Shown here: positions 16,923-33,599 of the stretch, piece after piece
Layout: each line of letters opens with the position of its first letter
Position numbering within the stretch: position 1 is the first letter of the stretch
Origin: an uncultured Ectothiorhodospiraceae bacterium
GTDB lineage: Bacteria > Pseudomonadota > Gammaproteobacteria > XJ16 > Halofilaceae
Assembly (NCBI GenBank): GCA_913055615.1
Contig: CAJXKK010000029.1
Location: 1-33,599, forward strand
DNA: 33,599 nt
Reading direction: 5' to 3'
The notes under the pieces: model-generated
Database searches by the model: none
What the model was told of the DNA's origin: nothing
The model's input: only the letters and a program-made list of their open reading frames with translations
Position numbers and translations under genes: made by a program

Positions 16923-17424
16923 CAAGCCCTCCATACCGGCGATTTCTGGCCGGGCGACGCGAGGCTACGCTGTTTCGTCGCCGGTTTGTAGAGGTGCTGG
17001 ACTGGCGGGACAGGACTTCGGGGACCGAGCGGTTGATCCTGTTGTCCTCGCAGAGCCGCGAAGTACGCAAAGAGGAAGAAACAAGTGGAGTCATTTCGCT
17101 TCTGCCGTCCCAGCGGGGCCTTTACCAATGTTCGGGTCAGTAAAGGGTCTGCGCTTCACGCCATGGGTCTGTACGTCCTTCGCGCTGCACCAGGCGGGGG
17201 CGAATGAGCCGGGCGTGATTTACCCAGCGGCAACATCAAGCTGCCGGGTCATGGAAGCTTGGTATCATCCCTGTCCCGTTTGAATGGCACCAGAACGATG
17301 CCGGTGTGAACGATTTGCATCGGGCAGATGATGCAAACAGAATCCGTTACTCAGCGCTTTCTCACCCGCGGGCGACATGGTCGCGTTCCATGCCGTTCGA
17401 CCCGACAGTTACAAGGAGGCCTTC
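16923..17424. other. Intergenic region between MFS gene and egtC
   Basis: No supported gene lies in these 502 bases. Possible promoter elements include TATCAT near 17263, and an inverted repeat at 17314-17337 lies shortly before egtC. A short stretch near 17050-17080 (GCAGAGCCGCGAAGTACGCA) resembles degenerate intergenic repeats seen elsewhere in the window. This is presumably the divergent control region for the MFS and egt genes. Confidence 0.35.
17314..17337. promoter_or_regulatory. Inverted repeat upstream of egtC, possible operator
   Basis: Perfect eight-base arms TTTGCATC and GATGCAAA are separated by eight bases. The repeat ends 87 bases before the egtC start. Size and symmetry fit a dimeric regulator site, but no regulator gene is adjacent. 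Confidence 0.25.
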
Positions 17425-18204
17425 ATGTGCCGCATGGCGGCCTACACCGGCGATCCTATCCGGCTCCACGATCTTTTGTGCGCGCCACCGCACAGCCTGA
17501 TCGAGCAGGCGCATGCACCCGCCGAGACCGTCTCGGCGACGGTCAACGCCGACGGGGTTGGCATCGGCTGGTACGCCGACGACGCCCGCGCGGCGGCCTA
17601 TCGCTCGCCGTTGCCAGCCTGGGCGGACCCGAACCTCGACGGTCTGGGCCGCTCGCTCACGCGCGGGGTCTGGGTAGCCAACGTACGAAGTGCGACCGAA
17701 CCGCTATCCAACGGCACGGCGAATACGCAGCCGTTCACGGATACGCATCGGCTGTTCCTCCACAACGGCTTCATCGAAGACTTTGCCGGCTCGATCCGGC
17801 GGCCATTTCGGGCCGCGCTTGCCTCCGACTACGAGGCCGGCATCAACGGGACCACCGACTCCGAGTACCTCTTCGCTCTGGTTCGCCAATATGCGGATGA
17901 GCAAAACGATCTTGTCGCGGGGCTGCGTGCGGCCACCCGGCGCCTGCACGGGTGGCTCGGCGAGACCGGTGGTGGGGCGTTATGCAATGTCATCGTCGCC
18001 CAGGGGGAGCGCTTGGTAGCGCTCCGCCACGCCCATCGCCGTGAACCGCCCAGTCTCTACGTCCATGCGCGCCACCCCGGCTTCGCCGACGGCGCACTGG
18101 TGGCCTCGGAGCCCCTCGACGCGGATCCGGGGTGGGTGGCAGTTTCACCCGACCATATCGTCACACTGAGGCCCGGTAGCCATGCCGACACAGTCGCCCT
18201 GTGA
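17425..18204 (+). CDS. egtC: Ergothioneine biosynthesis glutamine amidotransferase-like hydrolase EgtC
   Basis: This 259-residue class II (Ntn) amidotransferase-fold enzyme starts MCRMAAYTG, so Cys2 becomes the N-terminal nucleophile after methionine removal. Family features follow: NADGVGIGWYADD (about 50-62), a VANVRSATEPLSNGTANTQPF stretch (about 92-112, substrate binding) and HNGFIEDF (about 119-126). EgtC removes glutamate from the gamma-glutamyl-cysteinyl-hercynine sulfoxide intermediate. A strong AAGGAGG lies five bases before ATG 17425, which decides this start over the upstream ATG at 17377. It overlaps egtB by 23 bases, so the two are co-translated. Confidence 0.85.
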   Translation: MCRMAAYTGDPIRLHDLLCAPPHSLIEQAHAPAETVSATVNADGVGIGWYADDARAAAYRSPLPAWADPNLDGLGRSLTRGVWVANVRSATEPLSNGTANTQPFTDTHRLFLHNGFIEDFAGSIRRPFRAALASDYEAGINGTTDSEYLFALVRQYADEQNDLVAGLRAATRRLHGWLGETGGGALCNVIVAQGERLVALRHAHRREPPSLYVHARHPGFADGALVASEPLDADPGWVAVSPDHIVTLRPGSHADTVAL

Positions 18205-19390
18205 CAACGACTCGGCCTGTGTCGTCGGGCGTTCACCGCTTGCGGCTTTGGCGAAACATCAGGCTCGGGCGCGCGGTGTCGCCGAGGCGTTGCCCGAGCG
18301 CACGCTCTGGTCGCAGTACCATGCCGAGCTCAGCCCGATCGGCTGGCATATAGGCCATTGCGCTCTTGTCGAGCACTATTGGCTGGCCGAGACGATCCTG
18401 GGCGAGACGCCGGACCGCGACGCGCATGCGCTGTATTTCCCCGAGAACAGCACGAAATCATCCCGGGGCGGGCATCTGCCCGATCGCGAGACGCTGCTGG
18501 CTTGGACGGCGTCTGTCCATGAGCGCACCCTCTCGCTGCTGATCGACCCCCCGATCCGGCTCGCCTCCCACTCGCTGATGGCTGAGGACTACCTGCTGCA
18601 TTTCCTGGAGCAGCACTTCGCCCAGCACCACGAGACGCTGCGCTACTGCCTGGCCGCGCGGGTCAGAGCGATCGATGCGGCCGGCGACACCATACCACCT
18701 TCGAAGGCCGTCCTCGCCGACCCGAGCCTGCCGCCGACGGTGGCGCTTGAACCAGGCGCACGGCGCGTGGGCACCGACGACGTCCGCGGTTACGACAACG
18801 AGCGCCCCAGCCATACCGTCACGCTTGCGGGCGCCGTGCTCGCCGAGCGTCCGATTACGAACGCACAATGGATCGCGTTCATGGACGCCGACGGGTACAC
18901 CGAGCCGGTTTACTGGTCCGATTCGGGTTGGGCCTGGCGCCGACGGTGTGGGATCGAGCGGCCGTGGCCCTGGCACCTGGATGCGGGTGGGCGCTATACA
19001 TGGTCCGGCCCAGGGGGCTGGGCGCCGCTCGATGCCGACGCGCCGGTCAGCGGCATCAGCTTTTATGAGGCCGAGGCGTTCGCCGCCTGGGCCGGGGCGC
19101 GGCTACCCCATGAGCACGAGTGGGAGGCCGCGGCACGCGAGCAGCGCCTCCGCGGTACGGGTGTCGTCTGGGAATGGTGTGCCAACGCACTCGCGCCATA
19201 CCCGGGATTTACAGCCTTCCCCTACGAGGGCTACTCGACGCCCTGGTTCGATGGCCGCCACGTGGTACTGCGCGGCGGCAGCCGCGATACAGATCCGGGG
19301 CTCAGGCGGGTAACGTTCCGCAATTTCTTCGAGGCACATGTGCGCCACCAGTTCGCGGGTCTGCGTCTGGCCTGGGACTGGCCCGAATAG
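18182..19390 (+). CDS. egtB: Ergothioneine biosynthesis sulfoxide synthase EgtB
   Basis: This 402-residue non-haem iron enzyme couples hercynine with a cysteine thiol (gamma-glutamylcysteine when EgtC is present) to give the sulfoxide. An N-terminal DinB-like helical domain (about 15-165) contains WHIGH (55-59) and the HxxxH pair His145/His149 in EQHFAQHHE, the expected iron ligands. The C-terminal FGE-sulfatase (SUMF1-like) domain (about 190-400) shows GYDNERPSHTV, WEWCANALAPYPGF and VVLRGGSRDTDPGLRR, ending AWDWPE. The start lies inside the end of egtC. The histidine methyltransferase EgtD is not within the window, so hercynine must come from elsewhere in the genome. Its final codons form the left edge of a direct repeat with 26095-26585. 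Confidence 0.85.
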   Translation: MPTQSPCDNDSACVVGRSPLAALAKHQARARGVAEALPERTLWSQYHAELSPIGWHIGHCALVEHYWLAETILGETPDRDAHALYFPENSTKSSRGGHLPDRETLLAWTASVHERTLSLLIDPPIRLASHSLMAEDYLLHFLEQHFAQHHETLRYCLAARVRAIDAAGDTIPPSKAVLADPSLPPTVALEPGARRVGTDDVRGYDNERPSHTVTLAGAVLAERPITNAQWIAFMDADGYTEPVYWSDSGWAWRRRCGIERPWPWHLDAGGRYTWSGPGGWAPLDADAPVSGISFYEAEAFAAWAGARLPHEHEWEAAAREQRLRGTGVVWEWCANALAPYPGFTAFPYEGYSTPWFDGRHVVLRGGSRDTDPGLRRVTFRNFFEAHVRHQFAGLRLAWDWPE

Positions 19391-19698
19391 CCGCTCCGCC
19401 CGCTGAAGCAGCCGCGGTCACGTCAGTGCCCGGCGGTTTCCGAGCAGTGCGGATAGTCGCTGCGCAGTTTCTCCATCCCGAAGTGCTCCTCGACCCACTC
19501 GATCCTTGCCGGCGCGGGGTCGAGCTCGCGCGGGTGGTCCGGGTTGGACAGCTCGAAGGCGCGGAGGATCTCGCCGTCGGGATGGTGCCAGCGGATGGGG
19601 GTGTTCAGGCTCGACTCGCGCTTGGGTTCGCCCAGTGGACCGATCCGCTGGCGCACGCTCGCTTCGCGGTCGGCCCGGCTCAGGATGAGCGCGCCACA
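19370..19698 (+). repeat. Left copy of direct repeat (egtB end plus gene X 3' part)
   Basis: From the last codons of egtB (AWDWPE-stop), through the short spacer, into the 3' part of the gene X copy, this stretch is clearly homologous to 26095-26585 in the same orientation. The stop-codon region matches 18 of 21 bases. The stretch starting TCAGTGCCCGGC is near-identical for about 80 bases. The left copy lacks about 160 bases that are present in the right copy. Confidence 0.75.
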
Positions 19699-19746
19699 GG
19701 GCAAAAGCAGCCAATCCGTATGGGCGAGCCATTTGCAAGAGATCAC
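19423..19746 (-). pseudogene. Truncated, internally deleted copy of gene X (26148-27287)
   Basis: The frame ends EWVEEHFGMEKLRSDYPHC and then SETAGH, and contains ALILSRADREASVRQRIG and PIRWHHPDG. These are clearly homologous to the last 145 residues of the gene at 26148-27287. It begins only at the ALILSRADRE region. It also lacks about 54 codons corresponding to the putative zinc-site segment (SSHYGAGAAD and flanks), in frame. A GTG at 19746 overlaps the antiporter stop codon (GTGA), so a 107-residue product could be made, but it would lack the functional core. I therefore call it a gene fragment created by the duplication that flanks the phosphate block. Confidence 0.75.
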
Positions 19747-20909
19747 GCAGTCTCCCCAGCCCTGCGGAGCGCCAGTCGTGTCAGCGGCGGTCCGGCGATC
19801 TCGAACACCACGGTCGAGGCGAGTACGACCGAAAGCAGCACGTCGGCTCGCTCGGGGAACCGCTGGGCGGCCAAGAGGGCCATGCCTACGGCGATGCCTG
19901 CCTGGGGCAACAATGCCATACCCATCCACGGACCCGTTCCCGCGCGCAGGGTGCGCCACCGTGCACCGGCCGAAGCGCCAAGCAGGCGGCCGCAGACCCG
20001 AGCGACAATGTATCCGGCGCCAAGCCACCCCACCGCTGGCAGGGCCTCCAATTCCAGCGCTGCACCAGCGAGCAGGAAGAAGACCAGCATGAACGGCCAC
20101 TGGATGTGCTCGATGGCATGGAACGGTCGTTTGTGGTGGCGGGCCATGTTGGACACTATTGCGCCCATGACCACGGCGGCGAGCAGGAACGACACCTCCA
20201 GCCAGCGGGCCGCCCCCAGGCATAAGAAGACAAGCCCGAGTGCCTCGGCCAGGGTCGGGTCACCACGCGAGATACGGCCCGTGGCGAATGCGGCCGGTAT
20301 ACCCAGGACCACGCCAAGGCCCACTGCACCGCCGATCTCCCACGCCCCGTGGGTCAGCGCGGTCATCCCGTCGCCGCCATCGAGGACCGCCACCGCGGCC
20401 ATCACCAGACTGAACGTGAACACGCCCCAGACGTCGTCCACGGCGACCACGCCCAGGAGGGTCTCGGTAAACGGTCCCTTGGCGCCGCTCTCCAGCACAA
20501 CATCCGTGGTAGCCGCCGGTGCTGTAGCGGTCGCCAGGGCGCCCAGCAGCAAGGACAGGCCGAGGTCGCCGGACAGCAGCCAGGTCGCCGCGAACACCAA
20601 CACGGCGGTAAGCGCGACGACCGCGATCGACAACGCCAGCACATCGGCGCCGTGTCGCTTGAGGTTCCGGCGGGTCAAGTGACCTCCCAGCAGGAACCCG
20701 ACCATGGTCAGGGCGACCTGGGACACGACGTTGAACCACTGTGTTCCAGCGGGCACCAGCCAACCCGTCAGTGACGGACCGAAGGCCACACCGGCGATGA
20801 TCAACAGCGTCACCCGAGGAAGCGGTGTCCTCCGGCCAAGCAATTCCGCAGCCAGGCCGACCATCAACACGAGCCCCAGAAGGAAGATCATCTCGGTTAC
20901 ATTGGCCAT
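19743..20909 (-). CDS. Cation:proton antiporter (CPA family)
   Basis: This is a 388-residue integral membrane antiporter with about 11-13 hydrophobic helices. It starts MANVTEMIFLLGLVLMVGLA. Family signs are LPRVTLLIIAGVAFGP (about 33-48), GFLLGGHLTRRNLK, the TAPAATTDVVLES region and GVVAVDDVWGVF with the paired aspartates expected for Na+/H+ or K+/H+ exchange. The start at 20909 coincides with the first hydrophobic segment; a longer frame to 21017 adds only polar residues. It lies downstream of ppk2 on the same strand with about 230 bases between them, so co-transcription is possible but not shown. Ion specificity is unknown. Confidence 0.8.
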   Translation of the reverse strand: MANVTEMIFLLGLVLMVGLAAELLGRRTPLPRVTLLIIAGVAFGPSLTGWLVPAGTQWFNVVSQVALTMVGFLLGGHLTRRNLKRHGADVLALSIAVVALTAVLVFAATWLLSGDLGLSLLLGALATATAPAATTDVVLESGAKGPFTETLLGVVAVDDVWGVFTFSLVMAAVAVLDGGDGMTALTHGAWEIGGAVGLGVVLGIPAAFATGRISRGDPTLAEALGLVFLCLGAARWLEVSFLLAAVVMGAIVSNMARHHKRPFHAIEHIQWPFMLVFFLLAGAALELEALPAVGWLGAGYIVARVCGRLLGASAGARWRTLRAGTGPWMGMALLPQAGIAVGMALLAAQRFPERADVLLSVVLASTVVFEIAGPPLTRLALRRAGETA

Positions 20910-21141
20910 GGCGACCCCGGAAGCCGGATAGTGATATGACGATACCCCGTCGCCCTCGCTGGCGGAACGTTCGCGCGAACGCGGGTTCGCACCGAAGGCC
21001 ATCGTCGGTGCGAGCATGCGCGAGGTGGCGTATCTGATCTACGGCGTCGTGTGTTTCGCCCGCGTGATACCGCGAAGCAGTGGGACGCAATTCCTGCAGG
21101 TTCCAGCAGGGCTGAACATCAGGAGCGGTTCGGACGACGCC

Positions 21142-21975
21142 TCAGTACAGCCGCTCGACATAGGACTCGTTCGGTTTTGGCACGCGGTTGTCCTCGTCGC
21201 CCACCCAGGTGCGCGGCGGCAACTCGGGCTGCGGCGGTGGACTCCTGCGATAGTCGATCTGCTGCAACAGGTTGCTTATGCAATTCAGGCGGGCATGGCG
21301 CTTGACGTCGGAGTCGACCATTCTCCAGGGGGCGTATGGGAGGTCCGTATATTGCAGCATCTCGTCCTTGGCCTGCGAGTATTCGTGCCACAGCTGCCGG
21401 GATTGCAGGTCCATCGGCGAAATTTTCCACCGTTTGGTGGGATCCGCCGCGCGTGCCTGGAACCGCGCCTCCTGCACTTCCTCGCTGACCGAGAACCAGT
21501 ACTTGATCAGGATAATGCCGTCTTCCACAAGCATGTGCTCGAATTCCGGGCAGGTGCGCATGAAAAGATCGACCTGCTCGGGCGTGGCGAATCCCATGAC
21601 GCGTTCGACACCGGCCCGGTTGTACCATGAGCGATCGAACAGCGTCATTTCACCCGCGGCCGGGAGGTGGGGGACATATCGCTGGAAATACCACTGGCTC
21701 TTTTCCCGATCCGAGGGCGTGCCAAGCGCTACGGTGCGTACAACGCGAGGACTGGTCCTCTCGGTGATACGCTTGATTACGCCTCCCTTGCCGGCGGCAT
21801 CACGCCCCTCGAACACGACCACGATACGGAGTCCGTCCTCGGTGATGGTCCGCTGCAGCTTGGCGAGTTCCACCTGCAGTCGCGCCAGTTCCTGCTCGTA
21901 GATCTTCTTTTTCAGTATACCTTTCCTGTTGTAGGCGTCGTCGTCGAAACGGCGACCCGGTGAAAGTGGCTGCAT
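21142..21975 (-). CDS. ppk2: Polyphosphate kinase 2
   Basis: This 277-residue class I PPK2 uses polyphosphate to phosphorylate nucleoside diphosphates (or the reverse reaction). Visible motifs are the Walker A loop GRDAAGKGG (57-65), the lid region ERTSPRVVRTVALGTPSDREK (about 72-92) and the Walker B block FDRSWYNRAGVERVMGF (about 113-129). YTDLPYAPWRMVDSD lies near residue 220. The start at 21975 has GGAGG six bases upstream; the in-frame extension to 22008 has no family similarity. It is divergent from the Na/Pi cotransporter gene across a 157-base region containing a Pho-box-like site, which fits induction under phosphate limitation. Confidence 0.9.
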   Translation of the reverse strand: MQPLSPGRRFDDDAYNRKGILKKKIYEQELARLQVELAKLQRTITEDGLRIVVVFEGRDAAGKGGVIKRITERTSPRVVRTVALGTPSDREKSQWYFQRYVPHLPAAGEMTLFDRSWYNRAGVERVMGFATPEQVDLFMRTCPEFEHMLVEDGIILIKYWFSVSEEVQEARFQARAADPTKRWKISPMDLQSRQLWHEYSQAKDEMLQYTDLPYAPWRMVDSDVKRHARLNCISNLLQQIDYRRSPPPQPELPPRTWVGDEDNRVPKPNESYVERLY

Positions 21976-22025
21976 GCAAATCCTCCAGGCGATCCGCGCT
22001 ACGCCCACGTGCCGATTTCGCTGTA

Positions 22026-22043
22026 ATTACAAAAATGTGACAA
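22026..22043 (-). promoter_or_regulatory. Pho-box-like PhoB site
   Basis: On the minus strand this reads TTGTCAC-ATTT-TTGTAAT. These are two seven-base half-sites with an 11-base period and an AT-rich four-base spacer, close to the PhoB consensus CTGTCAT-AWAW-CTGTCAY. Each half matches at five of seven positions. It lies 50 bases upstream of the ppk2 start in ppk2 orientation and 89 bases upstream of the divergent Na/Pi gene. No clear -10 element was found. Confidence 0.45.
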
Positions 22044-22132
22044 AATTACTACACCGGAACAGTTTGACCACATACCGCGCCGTTACGCAACTAACGGGAT
22101 CCGTGCCCGGATTGGCCGGTATCGGGGAAACA

Positions 22133-23962
22133 ATGAACCACTACCGCCGCATCCTCGCAGCCGCACTCGTTGCCGTTCTCGGCTATCTGCTCTGGGCGAG
22201 CCCCGAGTTCAAGGAGATTGCCGCCGGCGTGGCGATCTTCCTGTTCGGCATGCTCACGCTCGAAAACGGTTTCCGTCAGTTTACCGGCGGGTTGCTGGAA
22301 AGAATCCTGCGCCGGACCACGGACAATACGGCGAAGAGTCTCGGTTTCGGGATCGTCAGCACGGCGTTGATGCAATCCAGTTCGCTTGTATCGGTCATCA
22401 CGATATCGTTTCTGAGCGCGGGGCTGCTCCCGCTCATCGCGGGCATCGGCATCATCTACGGGGCCAATCTGGGAACCACGACGGGCGCGTGGCTGTTCGC
22501 TACGATCGGTATGAAAATGAGCCTGTCGACCTTCGCGTTGCCGATGCTGGTGTTCGGGGTCGTGCTCAATTTTCAGCCGGCCCGCGCGGTAAAGGCAGTG
22601 GGCGCGATCCTCGCCGGTCTGGGCTTTCTGTTCCTCGGCATCGATTTCATGAAGGCGGGGTTCGAGAGCTTCCAATCGGCGGTCGATCTCAGCGAATACG
22701 CAATGACCGGCATGCCCGGGCTGCTGGCGTACACGGGGCTCGGGATCCTGGCGACGGTGATCATGCAGTCTAGCCACGCGACGCTGGCCCTGACTTTGGC
22801 CGGCCTGGCCACCGGCCAGATCACCTACGAGAACGCGCTCGCGCTCGCGATCGGCGCCAATATCGGCACAACGGTGACGGCCCTGATCGGTGGCGTCAGC
22901 GCGAACACCGCGGGCAAGCGTCTCGCCGGGGCCCATCTGCTGTTCAATCTGGCGACCGCGGCGATCGCTTTGGTGCTGATCGAGCCTCTGCGCTGGTCCG
23001 TTGACAGCCTGTCGGCCGTGATGTCCATCGCGACCGATGATTACACGGTCAAGCTCGCCGTATTCCACACTCTGTTCAACGTACTGGGCGTTACCGTGAT
23101 GCTGCCGCTGATGCCGAGGATGGCGGGCGCACTGGAACGCTGGCTGCCGGAGGCCGCGGCAGAGGCCGCGGCGGAGCCCAAATACCTGAGCACCGCGGCC
23201 ATGGATTCGCCTGACAGCGCGGCCGCCGCCGTGCGTCGGGAAGTCTGGCACCTGTTCGATGAGGCCTTCATCATACTCGCGCACGGTCTCCATCTGCACC
23301 GCGAACAGGTACGCGACAGCGATGATCTTGAGGCGACCATCCATGAGGATCGCGAGCGCATCGATATCGATATCGACTCCGTCTATGCCCGCAGGGTGAA
23401 GCGACTCTACAACGCCATTCTCGATTTCATTTCCGGGCGCATGAGTCGCGCCGTGTCTCCCGGTTCGACCGACCAGCTCCACCGCCTCCAGCAAGCGGCC
23501 GCCGGTATGGTTGAAGCCATCAAGCACGTCAAGCATCTGCGCAACAATCTCACGAAGTACCTTGTTTCCGATAATGAGGCCATCCGCCGCGAGTACAATG
23601 ACCTGCGGCTGCGCATGGCGCTGGTCCTTCGGGAAACCGACCGGCTTTCCGCGGGGCGCTATGATGATGCCACCTCGGCCATATTGGAGCTGGATGAGAT
23701 CGCCGTGCGCGCCCGCGTTGATCGCGAATCCATGATCTCCCGGGTAACGGAACTGGTGCAGTCCGGGCAGGTCGATTCCGGGATGGCAACTTCGCTGCTC
23801 AACGATTCGGCCTATGCGGGTGAGACTGTGGACGCCATACTGATGGCCACACGTTCGCTCCTGACCGCTGGTGATGAACAGGCGGCGCGCACCGCGGAAG
23901 CCTTGTCGGTCAGTGATGAGGGCCAGGCAGAGGTCACGCGCCGCCACGCCACTGGCTGGTGA
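22133..23962 (+). CDS. Na/Pi cotransporter family protein with PhoU-like tail
   Basis: This is a 609-residue NptA/YjbB-type sodium-phosphate cotransporter. The N-terminal membrane domain (about 1-320) contains the two inverted-repeat signature sites, LMQSSSLVSV (about 80-89) and IMQSSHATLAL (about 209-219). The second has His where Ser is usual (QSSS). GANLGTTTG and GANIGTTVTALIGG follow the two signatures. The C-terminal 240 residues are helical and charged like PhoU domains. The family moves phosphate with sodium; E. coli YjbB is linked to phosphate export under high polyphosphate. The start at 22133 follows a GGGG stretch. Divergent ppk2 and the downstream helical protein suggest a shared phosphate role. 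Confidence 0.88.
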   Translation: MNHYRRILAAALVAVLGYLLWASPEFKEIAAGVAIFLFGMLTLENGFRQFTGGLLERILRRTTDNTAKSLGFGIVSTALMQSSSLVSVITISFLSAGLLPLIAGIGIIYGANLGTTTGAWLFATIGMKMSLSTFALPMLVFGVVLNFQPARAVKAVGAILAGLGFLFLGIDFMKAGFESFQSAVDLSEYAMTGMPGLLAYTGLGILATVIMQSSHATLALTLAGLATGQITYENALALAIGANIGTTVTALIGGVSANTAGKRLAGAHLLFNLATAAIALVLIEPLRWSVDSLSAVMSIATDDYTVKLAVFHTLFNVLGVTVMLPLMPRMAGALERWLPEAAAEAAAEPKYLSTAAMDSPDSAAAAVRREVWHLFDEAFIILAHGLHLHREQVRDSDDLEATIHEDRERIDIDIDSVYARRVKRLYNAILDFISGRMSRAVSPGSTDQLHRLQQAAAGMVEAIKHVKHLRNNLTKYLVSDNEAIRREYNDLRLRMALVLRETDRLSAGRYDDATSAILELDEIAVRARVDRESMISRVTELVQSGQVDSGMATSLLNDSAYAGETVDAILMATRSLLTAGDEQAARTAEALSVSDEGQAEVTRRHATGW

Positions 23963-24006
23963 TCGCGTTAGCCAACAGGGAATTTTCGAAAACAGGGGGC
24001 TGGACA

Positions 24007-24240
24007 ATGGGGTTCAAGGACCTGGTGACGACGCTCGACGATGTCTTCGGCAAGCACGACAAGGGCAAGTCGCTCAAGCACAAGAAGCTGAAGCGGCTCG
24101 AGAAGGCGCTGGAGAAGAAACAGGCGAATTACCGAGAGCGGCTCGAGTCCGGCTCGTCAACGGAGAAACCGTTTCAGACCGAGCTGCGCCTGCACGTGGT
24201 GGAAGCGCAGCTGGAAAAGCTGCGCGAGCTCCTGAAGTAG
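24007..24240 (+). CDS. Small highly charged helical protein, unknown function
   Basis: The 77-residue product begins MGFKDLVTTLDDVFG and then becomes a lysine/glutamate-rich helix (KSLKHKKLKRLEKALEKK) and a second amphipathic helix ending EAQLEKLRELLK. A helical hairpin or coiled coil is likely; there is no signal peptide or membrane segment. GGGGG lies about seven bases before the ATG. It starts 44 bases after the Na/Pi gene stop and is very probably co-transcribed with it. I do not recognise the family. The neighbourhood suggests an accessory or polyphosphate-binding role (lysine-rich), but that is speculation. Confidence 0.65.
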   Translation: MGFKDLVTTLDDVFGKHDKGKSLKHKKLKRLEKALEKKQANYRERLESGSSTEKPFQTELRLHVVEAQLEKLRELLK

Positions 24241-24265
24241 ATCGATCGCCGGCGCGCATGGCCCA

Positions 24266-25774
24266 CTAGAACTGGACGATGTCGAGAGCGCGGATGGCCA
24301 AGGCGAGGAGTCCGGCCATAAGGGCGGTCGCCGGCACCGTTATGATCCAGGCGCCCACGATCGTTACGACGTGATAACGGCGCACAAGGTAGCGCTTTCG
24401 CGCCTTGGCAACGGTTTGGGCCGACACCTGCTCCGCATCGACATCGGGATCCGTTTCGGGGTTTGGTGGCCGCAGCGGCAATGCCCGCATGGCATCGCGA
24501 TTCGCCAGAAACTCGCGCAGGAAGCCGACGCCGAACAGCGCGCCGATCGCGGTATGGGTGGAACTGATCGGCAGGCCCAGGGAGGAGGCAATAATTACGG
24601 TGATTGCGGCCGAGACGGTGACGCAGAACGCACGCACGCGGTTGAGCTTGGTGATCTGGGAGCCGACCGTGCGGATCAGCTTCGGACCGAAAAGCAGCAG
24701 TCCTGTCGAGATGCCGAGTGCACCGACAACCAGCACCCAACTCGGGACCGCGGCCCGGGTGGCCAGCTCGCCCTCTGACACCGAGGTATAGATGGCTGCC
24801 AGCGGGCCGATGGCGTTGGCGACATCGTTTGAGCCGTGGGCGAACGACAGCAGGCATGCACCAGCGATCACGGGGATCGTGAACAGTTCCCCGACCGATT
24901 GCTTGCGTTCGTCGAGTTCGGCGAGCTTGCGGGAGATCAGGGGCCGGATCAGCGGTGTGGTTATGATGAGCACGATCACACCGAAAATAACCGCCAGCCA
25001 TAGCGGTACGGCCCAGAAGCGTTCCATCACCTTGACCAGCAGGTAGGCGGCAAAGGCTCCCCCCATGAATCCGACCAGAGAAGGTACCCGGCGCTCGGCC
25101 TGTTGTCGACGGTCGTCCGCCGACATGATGGTGTATTCGATGTAGGCGAGCAGCAGGGCGGCGACCACGCCTCCCATGACCGGGGAGATCACCCAGCTGG
25201 CCACGATCTTGCTTACTACGCCCCAGTCCGCCACCCCGAAACCGGCCATGGCGATGCCGCCACCGAGCACCCCGCCGACAATGGAGTGCGTGGTTGATAC
25301 CGGCGCGCCGACCGCGGTGGCGATATTGATCCAAAGGGCGGCGGCAAACAGGGCCGCGAGCATCCCGGTGACGAAGTCGTTGGTGTTCGGGATCAGGTCG
25401 GGGTCAATGATGCCCTTGGACACGGTCGATACGACATCGGCGCCGGCGATCAGGGCACCTGCTGCCTCGAAGACCGCGGCGATCAGCACGGCCACGCCGA
25501 TCTTCAGCGCGCGCGAGCCGACCGCTGGCGCCATGTTGTTGGCGACGTCGTTGGCCCCGATATTGAGGGCCATGTAGCCGCCGACCACCGTTGCCCCCAC
25601 GATAATGGCCCAGCCGGGAGCCATCCCCGTCATCGAGAACGCGGCGAGGCCGGCAAGTACGAGGAAGGTCAGGGCAATCGCATACGGCAGCATGCCCTCC
25701 GACGTTTCCTGGAGGTACTGCTCAAGACGGTTGAGCCGTTTGAGATCCTTGTCGAGCGCGGTTTTGCGGAACAT
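24266..25774 (-). CDS. Inorganic phosphate transporter, PiT family
   Basis: This is a 502-residue low-affinity phosphate (metal-phosphate/H+ or Na+) symporter. The two PiT signature repeats are present: GANDVANNMAPAVG (about 73-86) and GSNDVANAIGP (about 315-325). PVSTTHSIVGG and PISSTHTAIGA mark the duplicated second motif. About ten to twelve helices are visible with a cytoplasmic loop in the middle. The start at 25774 has GAGGTGG just upstream; the extension to 25825 is unsupported. The gene faces the small helical protein gene tail to tail, with 25 bases between them. Confidence 0.88.
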   Translation of the reverse strand: MFRKTALDKDLKRLNRLEQYLQETSEGMLPYAIALTFLVLAGLAAFSMTGMAPGWAIIVGATVVGGYMALNIGANDVANNMAPAVGSRALKIGVAVLIAAVFEAAGALIAGADVVSTVSKGIIDPDLIPNTNDFVTGMLAALFAAALWINIATAVGAPVSTTHSIVGGVLGGGIAMAGFGVADWGVVSKIVASWVISPVMGGVVAALLLAYIEYTIMSADDRRQQAERRVPSLVGFMGGAFAAYLLVKVMERFWAVPLWLAVIFGVIVLIITTPLIRPLISRKLAELDERKQSVGELFTIPVIAGACLLSFAHGSNDVANAIGPLAAIYTSVSEGELATRAAVPSWVLVVGALGISTGLLLFGPKLIRTVGSQITKLNRVRAFCVTVSAAITVIIASSLGLPISSTHTAIGALFGVGFLREFLANRDAMRALPLRPPNPETDPDVDAEQVSAQTVAKARKRYLVRRYHVVTIVGAWIITVPATALMAGLLALAIRALDIVQF

Positions 25775-26147
25775 GTATCCACCTCTACCCGGGCCGTAAG
25801 GCGGATGCCCGGTCCCGGGAGCCAACCGTCATCCTGTTGTAATAGAGGTGTAACCGGTGACCAGTCTCCCGCAGAAAATTGGTGACGGCAAGGCGTGTTT
25901 GCATCGGTCATGGAGCCCCGGGGAGCACAGGGTATCGCCCATGACCGGCCTTCTGCCCTGCACGGAGAGGCGGAGCGATGTCCATGATTCATCGGCGCGT
26001 TCGGCCCTTAACGCCTCCCATGAGTATTGTCAGGTCTCAGAGCCATTGCGCCGCCGGCTCATGGCGTTGCGCTCCCGCAACGTGTCGACAGCATGCATGG
26101 GGCTGGCCGGAATAGCCGCTTTGCCGGGTGAATCAGGTGGGGTCTTG
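25775..26147. other. Spacer with egtB C-terminal remnant
   Basis: No complete gene is present in this 373-base gap. It contains the upstream region of the PiT gene. From 26095 it carries the codons AWGWPE-stop, which match the last codons of egtB (AWDWPE-stop), followed by spacer homologous to that after egtB. An 18-base 7-4-7 repeat TTGTAAT-AGAG-GTGTAAC (25837-25854) vaguely resembles a Pho box but points away from the PiT gene. Confidence 0.55.
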
Positions 26148-27391: not shown

Positions 27392-28897
27392 TCAGCGCCG
27401 CTGCCGGCGCTTGCGGCTGCCGTGTTTCGTGTACAAGCGCTGCGCCTCGGCGCGCTGTGCGGGATTGCGCCGCAGGCTGGCGATGCATTCCCGGGCCGCC
27501 CGGTAAGCGGTTTCCGGGTCGACGGCCGGCGCCGGGTAGTCGCTGCCGATCCGACAGCCATACCGCGCCTGCAGATTGGCCGGCATCCGGTAGGGCTCGG
27601 CAAGCCAGCTGTCGGGCACATCGCTGAGCGCGGGGATCCACCGACGAATGAAATGTCCAGCGGGATCATGGTCGCGGACCTGCTTCGCGGGGGAATAGAT
27701 ACGGGGCGCGTTGATACCCGTGGTGCCGGTCTGCATCTGGGCCTGGCTGTAGTGGATGCCGGGTTCGTAATCGGTGAACAGCCGTGCGAGATGGATCGCG
27801 GGTTGGCGCCAGTGGAGCCAGAGCTGGTAGCCCGCGAACGACATCAACATCGCCCGCATGCGGAAGTTGATCCAGCCGTGTGCATGCAGCGCCCGCATGC
27901 AGGCGTCGACCATCGGGAAACCCGTCTGGCCGTCACGCCAGCCCTCGAAGGCGGCACGCTCCTGATGCGTCCACATCGAAGCGTCTTCGGTGCGCAGACC
28001 GTCGCAGCTGCGGTCGAGATTGCGCCACTCCAGCTCCGGCTCGTCTTCGAGCTTCTGGATGAAGTGGCAGTGCCAGCGCAGGCGCCCCGCAAAGGCCTTG
28101 AGCGAATCGAGATGCCCGGGCAGCCGGTCGTTCGATCCGCGCAATGCAGCCCGCTTGGCCTCCAGCGCGTGATGCGCCTGGCGGATCGACAGGCAACCCA
28201 GGGCCAGATGGGGGCTGATGCGGCTGCAACCGTCGAATGCCGTAACCGGGCTCGACATGGCATGGCGGTACTCGACCCCCCGGTGGTCGAGGAAGCCCTC
28301 GAGCAATGCCCATGCGTTGGCCTCGCCGCCCTGTTGGAGGGATCGATGGGTGGCCGGTGACAGCGGTAATGCGCTCAGCGGCGGGATGCCGTCATCCAGC
28401 CGCGCGCACGAGGCGTCGACGATGGCGGATGGCGCCGGCAGCGGCTGCGGGGCCATGCGCCGGTCCCAATGACGGGACCAGCGATCGCGTGTGCCAAGGC
28501 CTCGGACGACGCCGTTCGCGGGCCACTCGTGCAACGGGATGGCGCGTCCCCTGAGCCAGCCACGGACACATTCGTCACGCGCGTGCGTCCATGCGGCGCC
28601 GGTTTCCTCATGGGCATATACGGCGTCGATGGTGCCGAGATCGTGCTCGATGCGGGCGAGGGCGTCCGGCATGTCCATGTGCGTCACGCACAGCCGGGCG
28701 CCGCGAGCCGCCAGAGCCCGCCGCAGCGATTCAAGACATTCCGTGAGGAATGCGTAATGCCGTGCATCCGCCTCCGGTTGCTGCCACGCCTCGGGCTCGA
28801 AGGCATAGAGACACAGTACGTCGCCGGCGGCCGCGGCCGCCGACAGCGGTTCATGGTCCGTGACCCGGAGATCGCGTTTGAACCAGACAATGTGCAA
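27392..28897 (-). CDS. Deoxyribodipyrimidine photolyase / cryptochrome family protein
   Basis: This 501-residue flavoprotein of the photolyase/cryptochrome family repairs UV-induced pyrimidine dimers with blue light, or acts as a photosensor. The N-terminal Rossmann domain opens HIVWFKRDLRVTDHEPL, the standard family start. The C-terminal FAD domain shows SRISPHLALGCLS (about 227-239), GWRDGQTGFPMVDACMRALH (about 322-341), HGWINFRMRAMLMSF and the GIHYSQAQMQTGTTGIN stretch. The basic tail GSRKRRQRR is unusual but harmless. The start codon is TTG at 28897, directly preceding the HIVWF motif. The FAD-site segments look complete. Class I photolyase is the likeliest type, but cryptochrome function cannot be excluded. 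Confidence 0.85.
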   Translation of the reverse strand: MHIVWFKRDLRVTDHEPLSAAAAAGDVLCLYAFEPEAWQQPEADARHYAFLTECLESLRRALAARGARLCVTHMDMPDALARIEHDLGTIDAVYAHEETGAAWTHARDECVRGWLRGRAIPLHEWPANGVVRGLGTRDRWSRHWDRRMAPQPLPAPSAIVDASCARLDDGIPPLSALPLSPATHRSLQQGGEANAWALLEGFLDHRGVEYRHAMSSPVTAFDGCSRISPHLALGCLSIRQAHHALEAKRAALRGSNDRLPGHLDSLKAFAGRLRWHCHFIQKLEDEPELEWRNLDRSCDGLRTEDASMWTHQERAAFEGWRDGQTGFPMVDACMRALHAHGWINFRMRAMLMSFAGYQLWLHWRQPAIHLARLFTDYEPGIHYSQAQMQTGTTGINAPRIYSPAKQVRDHDPAGHFIRRWIPALSDVPDSWLAEPYRMPANLQARYGCRIGSDYPAPAVDPETAYRAARECIASLRRNPAQRAEAQRLYTKHGSRKRRQRR

Positions 28898-29366: not shown

Positions 29367-29576
29367 GGCTTCAGTCCTGTCTGCGATTGGCCACCATCAT
29401 CCACGACGCGGCGGCATTGGCAAGCATTATCATACGCCGCTGAGGGATCATGGCGGGTAGGGGGAAGGGCTTATTCCAGCGCCCGTGCGCGTATGCGACC
29501 CTTTGCTCCCACCAGTTGCATCGGCCCGGCCAGGCAATCGGTCGCCGACCCATGGCGCCCCCTGAGCGATGCAGTA

Positions 29577-30752
29577 ATGCAGCGGATGGAAGAACTCGAT
29601 CGAGATATCCTGCTGGCGGGTCTGAACGCGGTCGGCGACGCCGTACTCGTGACGGACACTCGACTCGAGGGGTCGGGTCCTACCATCCTGTACACCAATC
29701 CGGCGTTCGAACGCCTTACGGGAGACCGCCGGAGGATGTGGTCAACACGCCCGTCAGCGTGCTCATGGGCGTCGGGACGGATGCCGCGGTCATGGCCGAC
29801 TGCCGGGCCAAACTCGCCGTCGGCCGGGCGTTCCGGGCCGAGATCATCAGTTACGGCCATGACGGGCAGCCGCTGCGGCTCGAATGGCACATCCAGCCGT
29901 TCCCCGCGGCTGCGGCGCCGACAAGGTTCATCGCGGTCGTCCGCGACGTGAGCGAGTTGCGGGCGCTCGAGGAGCGCCAGGCCCGGCTCGAGGCGCTGAC
30001 GCGCACGCAGAGTCGGGTGGCCACCGCTGGCTACGATCTCGATGCCCTGCAGGCTACCTGCGAGCGTATCGGTTTTCGCTCCGGCATCATCGCGCCGCTG
30101 ACGGGTGGGATACGCACGTTCGGTGTGCTCAAGGTCTATTCGGCGCGCCCGCGCGCCTTCCTGGATGGCGATCTGCAGGTGTTGCGCTGGGCCTCCGGGG
30201 TGCTCGCGGCGTCGCTGGAGGACGCCTGGCACCACGAGCACGAACGCCAGCGGCGTCAGCTGCTGGTCGATGCCCTGCCCGTGCTCGTGTCCTGCGTCGA
30301 TCGCGACAAGTGCTACCGGGAGGTCAATGATGCCTACCGGCAGTGGTTCGGGCTCGATCGCGCCGAGATCATCGGCCGGCATGTGCGGACGATCCTTGGT
30401 GACGAGGCCGTGGTGGACCGGGTGCTGGAGGGCGTGGCGGCTTTGCTGCAGGAGGAGGTGCGGGATGCGGATACGGTCTGTCGTTGGCGCGGCGAGGAAT
30501 TCGCCGTGCTGTTGCCGGAGACCGGGGCGGCCGAAGCGGCGACCCTCGCGCAACGCATGCGGCAACGCATCGGGGAGACCCCGTTCCCCCGGGGTCGCGG
30601 GCATCACCGCCAGTTTCGGCATCACGGAACTGCAGGCCGGACAGACCCGGGATGCGTTCGTGGGTGAAGCGGATCGGGCGCTGTACCGCGCCAAGGACGA
30701 GGGGCGCGATCGGGTCGTGATAGGCCTGGCGGCGGCCTCGGCCGGCAGCTGA
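29577..30752 (+). pseudogene. Decayed PAS-GAF-PAS-GGDEF diguanylate cyclase
   Basis: Translation in successive frames reconstructs a sensor diguanylate cyclase. There is a PAS domain (ILYTNPAFERLTG to FIAVVRDVSELRALEERQ), a short GAF-like remnant (CERIGFRSGIIAPL, then GVLKVYS), a second PAS (LPVLVSCVDRDKCYREVNDAYRQW) and the back half of a GGDEF domain. One-base shifts are needed near 29729 (TGDRR to PPEDVV) and near 30590 (ETPFP to GVAGITASFGIT). About 70 residues of GAF appear missing near 30055, and the front half of GGDEF is missing near 30415. The motif itself reads RGEEF instead of GGDEF/GGEEF. ATG at 29577 or 29586. Several independent lesions argue for a true pseudogene. Confidence 0.75.
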
Positions 30753-30829
30753 GACCGGCGGATGTCGCACGGGCGCAGGGACGTCCGTTCAGGGTATGGG
30801 ATGACCCGAGCCGGGATTGACGCCCCGGT

Positions 30830-31147
30830 TCAGGCAGTCTCCGGGCTTTGGAGATTCGCCAGGAAACGTTCGAGTTCCGGCCCATTGGACAGATCGCCAT
30901 ACAGCACCGTGGGTTCGCCGCTCGCGCGGACGTGGATCAGTGCCGGCGTGGCGAACATGCCGTATTCGGCAACGCCCGACGTGTCCTGCAGCAGATCGAT
31001 ATGCCGGACCGTGAGGCGGTTGTCCGCGATGTCTTCCACGGCAGTCGCGAGGTTGGCGCGCGCGCGCAGCGAGCGGGGCGAATCGCCCGTCACGAACAGA
31101 ATCAGGTCGGTATTGGTACCGGTCTCCCGATCGTTTTTCCCATTCAT
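30830..31147 (-). CDS. kaiB: KaiB-like protein
   Basis: This 105-residue thioredoxin-like protein has the KaiB signature: LILFVTGDSPRSLRARANL (about 15-33), TVRHIDLLQDTSGVAEYGMFATPALI (about 45-70) and YGDLSN (about 83-88). In cyanobacteria KaiB is a fold-switching partner that binds KaiC in the clock cycle; in other bacteria KaiB-KaiC pairs are tied to stress responses. Its ATG overlaps the last base of the kaiC stop codon (TAATG), so the pair is translationally coupled. The frame is intact, unlike its partner. No KaiA is present. Confidence 0.8.
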   Translation of the reverse strand: MNGKNDRETGTNTDLILFVTGDSPRSLRARANLATAVEDIADNRLTVRHIDLLQDTSGVAEYGMFATPALIHVRASGEPTVLYGDLSNGPELERFLANLQSPETA

Positions 31148-32867
31148 TATTCGGTCCCCCGGTCCTTGCCGGTCGTCGGTCCATCGGCGGCTCGCCGGCG
31201 CTGGATATCCTGTCTGTGCTCGGCGGCGTTGTGTTTGGTTTCGGCGTTGCCCTGGCGTTCGCGCTCCAGCACCTCGGTCAGGCGCTCGGCCTCGCTCTGC
31301 GCCTCCTCCATGCGCAGGCGTGCCTGCTGGATATTCCGTTCCAGATCCCGCTGGCGCTGCGCGCGTTCCACATACTGGCGTCGGTGGCGCTCGGCGACCT
31401 CGTGCTCTTCCTCGATCCGGGCCGTGCCCATGAGGACCTTGGGGCCGTATTCGTAGACGTCGGCGAGGTCCACGCCGGAGCCCGATAGCAATAGCTCGCG
31501 CACCTGGTTTGAGTGGGCGGAACCGCGGGATTTCACGATCGACAGGGCGCGATTGCGTTCGCCACCGTGGATCCGGTATTCAAGAGAAATCCAGCTGTCG
31601 GCCAGGGTCGAGGCATGACTGAGGGTCGTCTCGGTCTGCGGCTTGTCGGTATCGATCAGCGAGGTCAGCAGGGTCGTGATCCCGCGCGCGCGGGTCTCGT
31701 CGAGGATCCGCTCGGTGGTCATGTAGGCGCTGTCGGCGCTGGCGGCTTTCAACAGGGCCGAGACCGGGTCGATGACCAGGCAGTCGGGCTGGAACGCGTC
31801 GATCCAGCGGTGGATGGTGATGAAATGTTCCTCGACCAGCGAGTTCCAGGCCTGGCGCGATTCGATTTTCAGCAAGCCCGAATCGATGGCCGGCTGCAGC
31901 CGGAGCCCGATCGACGCGGCGTTGCGCACGATGCGGTCGTCGAGCTCGTCGAAGGTCAGGTAGAGCACCCGTTCGCCCCGATCCGCCGCCGCCAGTGCGA
32001 AACTGACACCGAGCGTGGTCTTCGCGGTACCGGGCGCGCCGGAGACGAGCACGGTCGAACCGCGGTAGATGCCGCCCCCCAGGATGCGGTCGAGCCGCAA
32101 GATGCCCATGCCGATGCGCTCCTGCGAGGCGGCCGTCCGTGCCGCCTCGCTGGCCGCACTGTAGGGCAGGTGCAGCCCGGCATCGTCCATCACCAGCGGC
32201 AGTTCGTCGGTGATGTGGGCGCTTCCGCGGTACTTCGCCACCCGGAAGCGCCGGTTCAGGCGCCGCCCGACCAGTTCCGTGGCCAGCACCAGCACGGTCG
32301 AGAGCATGAATTCGACGCCCTCGAGATCGAGCGGCTGCGAGCCGTCGGAACGGGTCTGCTTGCCGGTCAGAAGGAGGGTGATGCGGCGTGCCTGGCACCA
32401 GTCGTTGAGGTGTCTGACCTGATCCAGGGCGGCCCGCGGGTCGGGCTCCAGCGACAGCAGCTGATCGATGCCGTCCAGGATCAGCCAGCCGCCACCAAGG
32501 CCCTCGAGGCGGTGCTCGGCCATCGCCAGCACACCGTCGAGATCGAACCCGCCCGAGGCGGCGGCGTCGATGGGTGGGCGGCCGTCGAGCAGTGCCCATG
32601 CATCCGAGTCGGTGAGGGCCTTGCCCACTCGAATGACCCGGCATCGCGCAGAATCTGTTCCGGCTATTCCTCGAACGAGATGAACAGCCCGCCTCCGCCC
32701 TGCGCGATGATGCTGGCGAGGATCTGCAGCCCGAGTATGGTCTTGCCTGAACCGGGGCCGCCCAGCACGAGCACATCGCCGGCATCGGGTAGACCGCCGC
32801 GGGTCACGGCGTCGAGGCCGGCGATGCCGGTCGGGCGTTTGGTCAAAGCGGTGTCACCTTGCCCCAT
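31147..32867 (-). pseudogene. kaiC: KaiC-like ATPase/kinase with amber codon and frameshift
   Basis: This is a double-domain RecA-like ATPase of the KaiC family. CI starts at 32867 and has the P-loop GGPGSGKT (36-43). CII has its own P-loop, GAPGTAKTTLG. HASTLADSW carries the Ser-Thr pair in the position of the autophosphorylation sites. The C-terminal 90 residues form a charged coiled coil not found in cyanobacterial KaiC. After LFISFEE the frame hits TAG (32664-32666), where relatives have a residue such as Ser. PEQILRDAGSFEW follows. A one-base loss in a G-run near 32625 then shifts the frame. A GTG at 32628 could start a shorter product lacking the CI P-loop. Two lesions so close together suggest a recent pseudogene or local sequence error. 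Confidence 0.78.
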
Positions 32868-32913
32868 ACGTTGGCTATCCTGTTGTTCGAGGGAGCAGGT
32901 AGTGCGTGGCGCA

Positions 32914-33599
32914 CTAACCGCCGGCGCGCGAAATCGGCAGACGGGACCGCTGCTCCAGCAGCCAGCGGAAATCCTCGGACTCCAGCGGCATGCTGTAGTA
33001 ATAGCCCTGGCCGATGCGGCAGCCCATTTCCAGCAGGCAGTCGCGCTCGGCCGGGCTCTCCACGCCCTCGGCGATGACCTCGGCGTTCAGGGCGCCGGCC
33101 ACACCGAGGACCATGCTCACGATCTGACGGCTGTACGTGTCCTCCAGCATGCGCCGTACGAAACCCTGATCGATCTTGATCTCATCGAACGGGTAGCGCT
33201 GGAGGTACAGCAGCGACGAATAACCGGTCCCGAAGTCGTCGAGCGACAGCCGTACGCCCATGTCGTGCAGCCGTCTCAGCTGCTGGTTCAGGCTCTGCGA
33301 TTCGCGCTCGAATACGCTCTCCGTGATCTCCAGCGTCAGCGCATTGGGGGGGACGTCATGGCGCTGCAGCGCCGAGCGGACCGTCTCGGGGAAATCCCCC
33401 ACCATGAACTGCACCAGCGAGACGTTGACCGCCACGCGCACGATGTGCAGACGGGCATCCTGCCATTCGCGCAGGTACCGGCAGGCCTCGTTGAGCGCCC
33501 AGTCGCCGATCGGCCCGATCAACTGGCTCTGCTCCGCGATCGAGATGAACTTCGCCGGCGGGCGCAGGCCATGCTCGGGATGGTACCAGCGCAGCAGCG
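32914..33599 (-). CDS. EAL-domain c-di-GMP phosphodiesterase (5' end outside window)
   Basis: The visible 228 residues are the C-terminal part of an EAL domain that hydrolyses c-di-GMP to pGpG. The window edge cuts just after the EAL/ExL motif position: the first residues read LLRWYHPEHGLRPP. Catalytic and metal-site motifs follow: AVNVS, LEITES (metal-ligand Glu), LDDFGTGYSSL (loop 6 and the metal-binding Asp pair), IKIDQGFV (catalytic Lys), AEGVES and QGYYYSMPL. All expected active-site residues within view are present. N-terminal sensory or GGDEF domains are likely but off the window. It lies 46 bases upstream of kaiC on the same strand, so EAL-kaiC-kaiB form an operon-like set. Confidence 0.9.
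   Translation of the reverse strand, partial: LLRWYHPEHGLRPPAKFISIAEQSQLIGPIGDWALNEACRYLREWQDARLHIVRVAVNVSLVQFMVGDFPETVRSALQRHDVPPNALTLEITESVFERESQSLNQQLRRLHDMGVRLSLDDFGTGYSSLLYLQRYPFDEIKIDQGFVRRMLEDTYSRQIVSMVLGVAGALNAEVIAEGVESPAERDCLLEMGCRIGQGYYYSMPLESEDFRWLLEQRSRLPISRAGG

Follow-up and report, generated by a model that had tools for sequence, protein, structure and literature searches.

Kai loci outside the cyanobacteria

According to De Luca et al. (2011), nearly every kaiC-kaiB cluster outside the cyanobacteria is followed immediately downstream by a histidine kinase gene or a GGDEF/EAL gene (PMC3164672). In Rhodobacter sphaeroides, KaiBC acts as an hourglass timer that needs no KaiA and is driven by the ATP/ADP ratio (PMC10076222), and a KaiA-less kaiC-kaiB-histidine kinase cluster has been described in Rhodopseudomonas palustris (PMC4794148). 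A link between Kai proteins and c-di-GMP has also been reported in the reverse direction, since a changed c-di-GMP level shifts the phase and period of the clock in a cyanobacterium (PMC13001216).

Because De Luca et al. described the general association, the locus analysed here is a member of a published pattern. It shares with their loci a kaiC-kaiB cluster adjoining a GGDEF/EAL gene and the ST-type phosphosites; however, their partner gene lies immediately downstream, whereas in the window and its nearest relatives it lies immediately upstream of kaiC (PMC3164672). The R. sphaeroides system (PDB 8DBA, 8FWI, 8FWJ; PMC10076222) is alike in having no KaiA, in the long C-terminal extension of KaiC and in providing the nearest KaiB sequence. 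However, the phosphosite of R. sphaeroides is S-S (S413/S414, PMC10076222), whereas it is S-T in the clade of the window; in addition, unlike R. sphaeroides, this clade has a GGDEF-EAL gene in the operon, and the kaiC gene of the window is broken. The locus of R. palustris is also KaiA-less, with a PAS sensor gene predicted to be co-transcribed and a longer KaiC C-terminus, but its output partner is a histidine kinase and not a c-di-GMP enzyme (PMC4794148). The reading that we favour, and consider fairly probable, is that the present locus represents a KaiA-less KaiBC operon that was inactivated recently; a membrane-type GGDEF-EAL sensor gene would be transcribed together with kaiC and kaiB, and in intact relatives the operon would serve as a timer setting c-di-GMP.

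Organization of the locus

The window, that is, the whole stretch of DNA that was analysed, is one entire contig (C29, 33,599 bp) of a draft genome of 3.0 Mb in 87 contigs. On the minus strand near the contig end, an EAL gene, kaiC and kaiB were found to be contiguous in that order, as had been claimed from the sequence alone; the EAL stop and the kaiC start lie 46 nt apart, and the kaiC stop and the kaiB start share TAATG. On the plus strand, PAS, GAF and GGDEF pieces lie at about 29560-30752, facing kaiB convergently. The original prediction compared this arrangement with a kai operon described in Legionella, which contains a PAS/GGDEF/EAL gene. The features of the locus are as follows.

29560..30752 (start approximate), plus strand: diguanylate cyclase gene remnant (PAS-GAF-PAS-GGDEF), in convergent orientation to kaiB
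30830..31147, minus strand: kaiB, 105 aa, intact (PF07689, 27.6 bits, 2.4e-6)
31147..32628, minus strand: 3' part of kaiC, in the other frame, with the rest of CI, the whole of CII and the C-terminal extension
32664..32867, minus strand: 5' part of kaiC, codons 1-67 of CI with Walker A and FEE, ended by an in-frame TAG
32914..33599, minus strand: gene for a sensor GGDEF-EAL c-di-GMP phosphodiesterase, last 227 residues (PF00563, 2.6e-62)

In the genome of the sister species (G002), a HAMP-PAS-GGDEF-EAL gene, kaiC and kaiB form one tight operon accompanied by a whole diguanylate cyclase gene, and all of these genes are intact. Since the window is a whole contig, its EAL gene breaks off where the contig ends; the Pfam profile is covered from 34 to 236 of 236, and the first part lies off the contig. 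The encoded sequence retains the catalytic motifs DDFG, IKID and EGVE and is 90% identical to residues 1114-1340 of the sister orthologue, a 1342-aa HAMP-PAS-GGDEF-EAL protein that possesses EALLR, DDFG, IKID and EGVE. Residues 3-645 of the sister protein are matched at 71% by sequence lying at the end of contig C49, and no match to the middle of the gene was found in the genome of the window. Because the first ~645 residues match the end of C49 and the last 227 lie in the window, the gene was probably split by the assembly between C49 and C29, with the C49 sequence as the putative other half of the same gene.

The KaiB domain match is just above the cut-off. The nearest sequence in the PDB was the KaiB of 8fwj, from the R. 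sphaeroides system, and a structural model (pLDDT 80.5) showed a thioredoxin-like topology resembling fold-switched KaiB (TM 0.70-0.90), with matches to 5jwo_B, to 8fwj_M and to Lpp1115 of Legionella pneumophila (PDB 4kun). The protein therefore has both the KaiB domain and, as modelled, the thioredoxin-like (fold-switched) topology.

The gene beside kaiB had been expected to be a PAS-GAF-PAS-GGDEF gene lying head-on to it. Its pieces and its convergent position were recovered, but what remains of the gene carries two internal deletions and two frameshifts. Compared with its sister counterpart, which is an intact PAS-GAF-PAS-GGDEF protein of 616 aa, it has a 1-nt deletion near 29726, a 222-nt deletion near 30043 in the GAF region, a 345-nt deletion near 30404 across the PAS/GGDEF junction and a 1-nt insertion near 30586. 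No complete GGDEF domain with GG(D/E)EF in one frame was found in this frameshifted and deleted sequence; only positions 53-114 of the 161 in the profile were matched, and the motif reads RGEEF, against GGEEF in the sister. Between the cyclase gene and kaiB, the sister genome carries a 993-aa PAS-GGDEF-EAL gene and a C92-type amidase gene (~4 kb), both of which are missing in the window, where fewer than 100 bases (30752-30830) occupy this place.

Two further observations concern the same contig. A segment of about 9 kb (17007-26147) has no counterpart between two blocks that nearly adjoin in the sister (L038 2714 and 3046), and a photolyase/cryptochrome-family gene with an open frame lies near the Kai locus (27392-28897). 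The third genome of the genus (G001) was dropped as a syntenic comparison; it is without kaiB, and its sole photolyase match is 30% identical.

Lesions in kaiC

A KaiC-family sequence spans 31147-32867 on the minus strand. No continuous kaiC reading frame able to make a protein was found in the window, because codon 68, which directly follows the FEE motif of CI, is a TAG (32664-32666), and because 1 nt has been deleted relative to the sister near 32625, about 40 nt past the TAG in a G run. Both lesions lie within the CI domain, and downstream of them another frame stays open for the remaining 493 codons. At the sequence level, the two KaiC ATPase domains with their P-loops and catalytic Glu are present, split over two frames; they are intact in the sister, whose undamaged KaiC of 574 aa is 80% identical to that of the window. 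The 3' part contains the CII motifs GAPGTAKT and TFDE, the motif with the S/T pair of the CII phosphosite reads SHAST in the window and SHVST in the sister, and the C-terminal extension, a candidate for the coiled coil of an hourglass KaiC, is present and could be aligned with 8dba as far as the C-terminal tail. In the comparison with intact relatives, the kaiC lesions were seen in the genome of the window alone.

The selective constraint on the locus was evaluated against the sister. The dN/dS ratio was 0.16-0.17 for kaiC, 0.09 for the EAL part and 0.24 for the cyclase remnant, and relative-rate counts provided no significant excess of changes on the lineage of the window (31 v 18, p = 0.09; 24 v 20; 21 v 21), so relaxed selection on kaiC was not supported by these tests. 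A dN/dS value for HlyU and a row for the kaiB of Thiohalocapsa were left out, both having been read in a wrong frame. The low ratio and the lack of a significant rate excess suggest that selection maintained kaiC until recently, or that its two lesions are errors. In the latter case, the stop and the frameshift would have arisen in sequencing or assembly, the phosphodiesterase-kaiC-kaiB operon would be whole and working, and the loss would be limited to the neighbouring cyclase gene. The two lesions could be such errors because kaiC differs in length from the sister gene solely by the 1-nt deletion, a base lost in a G run, and by one 3-nt gap near the 3' end, and because it shows a dN/dS of 0.17 and no clear acceleration. 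However, the TAG stands where the sister has TCC, so that two bases differ; the 222- and 345-nt deletions in the adjacent cyclase gene cannot be base-call errors; and the remaining long frames of the contig appear open. We thus regard an origin of the kaiC lesions in sequencing or assembly as unlikely, and recent inactivation of the operon as the better account.

Arrangement upstream of kaiC

To place the KaiC of the window, we used a tree of 92 KaiC proteins, which is a quick tree with many weak forks in which joined long branches were flagged. In this tree, the window KaiC grouped with those of the sister, Methylohalomonas lacus, Thiohalocapsa halophila and Halochromatium salexigens. In each of these four relatives, kaiC is directly preceded by a GGDEF-EAL gene, whose stop lies 58, 34, 37 and -4 nt, respectively, from kaiC. 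The same arrangement was also observed in G172, Salinisphaera and Devosia, at 5, 5 and -4 nt. A 4-nt overlap of kaiC and kaiB was present in the sister, M. lacus, T. halophila, H. salexigens, G172 and Salinisphaera, and in Devosia kaiB begins about 70 nt after kaiC. The tight spacing of GGDEF-EAL, kaiC and kaiB supports their co-transcription, and the gene order suggests that they may form a dedicated unit in the clade of the window. In the open-licence papers searched, we found no description of the tight upstream arrangement.

On the same tree, the upstream label requires 6 changes and the c-di-GMP label at least 16, indicating that the association with c-di-GMP genes arose or was lost repeatedly. 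A stronger proposal is that a gammaproteobacterial KaiC clade, with its divergent KaiB and upstream GGDEF-EAL sensor, constitutes a dedicated unit in which a KaiA-free timer would directly gate the breakdown of c-di-GMP and which could be lost as a module; we hold this to be possible but rather doubtful.

Frequency of c-di-GMP genes next to kaiBC

The original prediction proposed a survey of EAL or GGDEF genes near kaiBC, a count through which the suggested link could have failed. Two sets were used. The first comprised the KaiB matches from 369 genomes of the class, and the second consisted of 80 KaiC relatives drawn from named genomes. KaiC, KaiB, EAL, GGDEF and histidine-kinase domains were marked by iterated profile searches; loci were counted when kaiC and kaiB were adjacent and had enough flank, and a neighbour was a GGDEF or EAL domain within 3 kb. 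Such c-di-GMP genes accompanied kaiBC at 13/19 loci of the class set and at 19/53 loci of the named set, the latter having been picked by KaiC similarity, not by neighbours, and not being a random sample. On the basis of how densely GGDEF matches occur in 22 genomes of the class, the expected rate was 5-7%, and the 5-10 kb flanks of the named set gave 9.7%; the resulting p values lie between 1e-11 and 5e-13 for 13/19 and at about 3e-7 for 19/53. The 5-10 kb flanks of the class set also show enrichment, and the stricter baseline of 24% that they provide gives p = 6e-5. After near-copies were removed, 16/44 loci still had a c-di-GMP neighbour (p = 1.8e-6).

These frequencies bear on the idea that the neighbourhood merely reflects chance gene order in a genome rich in GGDEF and EAL domains. 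The genome of the window does have about 23 GGDEF and 14 EAL matches, but this density predicts only ~5% of loci with such a gene within 3 kb, far below the fractions observed with or without near-copies. The survey, together with the density of GGDEF genes across the genome, therefore led us to reject chance, which we consider extremely improbable.

Histidine kinases, however, are equally or more common neighbours: they were found within 3 kb at 29/53 loci of the named set, against 19/53 for c-di-GMP genes, and one or the other was present at 46/53 loci of the named set and 17/19 of the class set. Because histidine kinases are at least as frequent, the Kai link appears to be one with signalling outputs generally. 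The conserved connection to second-messenger signalling that had been predicted thus stands as an association above chance, but it is neither new nor confined to c-di-GMP genes. KaiBC might accordingly be tied to sensors and signalling genes of any kind, with c-di-GMP enzymes as interchangeable partners and without a specific mechanism from Kai to c-di-GMP, and the at least 16 changes of the c-di-GMP label on the KaiC tree agree with this. What speaks against it is the clade of the window, where a tightly spaced GGDEF-EAL gene lies upstream in every nearest relative. We regard general signalling as a serious possibility, albeit one less probable than the KaiA-less c-di-GMP timer that we favour for the intact relatives.

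Two other patterns were seen in the survey. At many loci (L137-L184), kaiC is followed by two tandem kaiB genes, in most cases close to a histidine kinase. In addition, G118 and G330 carry several close copies of kaiB and kaiC (L074, L075 and L082), one kaiB adjoining a GGDEF domain.

A possible KaiA-independent c-di-GMP timer

The locus had been predicted not to be a clock on the grounds that KaiA is absent. A search for KaiA (PF07688) found none in the genome of the window (G000) or in three relatives (G001, G002 and G142), with control matches in Synechococcus only. The absence itself was thus borne out, but it excludes no timekeeping, because the KaiBC of R. sphaeroides is an hourglass that works without KaiA (PMC10076222). 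The closest solved KaiC to that of the sister is the dodecameric R. sphaeroides structure 8dba, with an alignment of residues 9-573 that extends into the C-terminal tail (E = 1.3e-88).

In the intact relatives, KaiC would autophosphorylate without KaiA, and KaiB, with its thioredoxin-like fold, would bind phosphorylated KaiC and promote its return to the unphosphorylated state. We infer that the phosphorylation or KaiB-binding state of KaiC may alter c-di-GMP turnover by the co-transcribed GGDEF-EAL sensor, so that a slow, energy-dependent KaiBC timer would set c-di-GMP levels. With both kaiC and the diguanylate cyclase gene broken, the locus in the window probably cannot work in this manner, and its own copy most likely no longer acts as a c-di-GMP timer. 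What is new locally is the apparent loss of the KaiBC/c-di-GMP module in this genome, which also cautions against inferring function from domain matches without checking that the frames are open. The recurrent tight GGDEF-EAL/kaiC/kaiB operon provides a concrete candidate output, c-di-GMP turnover, for KaiBC outside the cyanobacteria, and T. halophila, H. salexigens and M. lacus are strains in which this output is testable.

A second KaiC-like gene

The genome of the window also encodes a KaiC-like protein of 490 aa on contig C5 (L039:3068-6863). There is no kaiB nearby, and the gene adjoins a GGDEF-EAL gene on the same strand, the two frames overlapping and both being open; a GGDEF gene lies upstream of the pair on the other strand. 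Similar pairs of KaiC-like and GGDEF-EAL genes were observed in G001 (L040) and G002 (L191).
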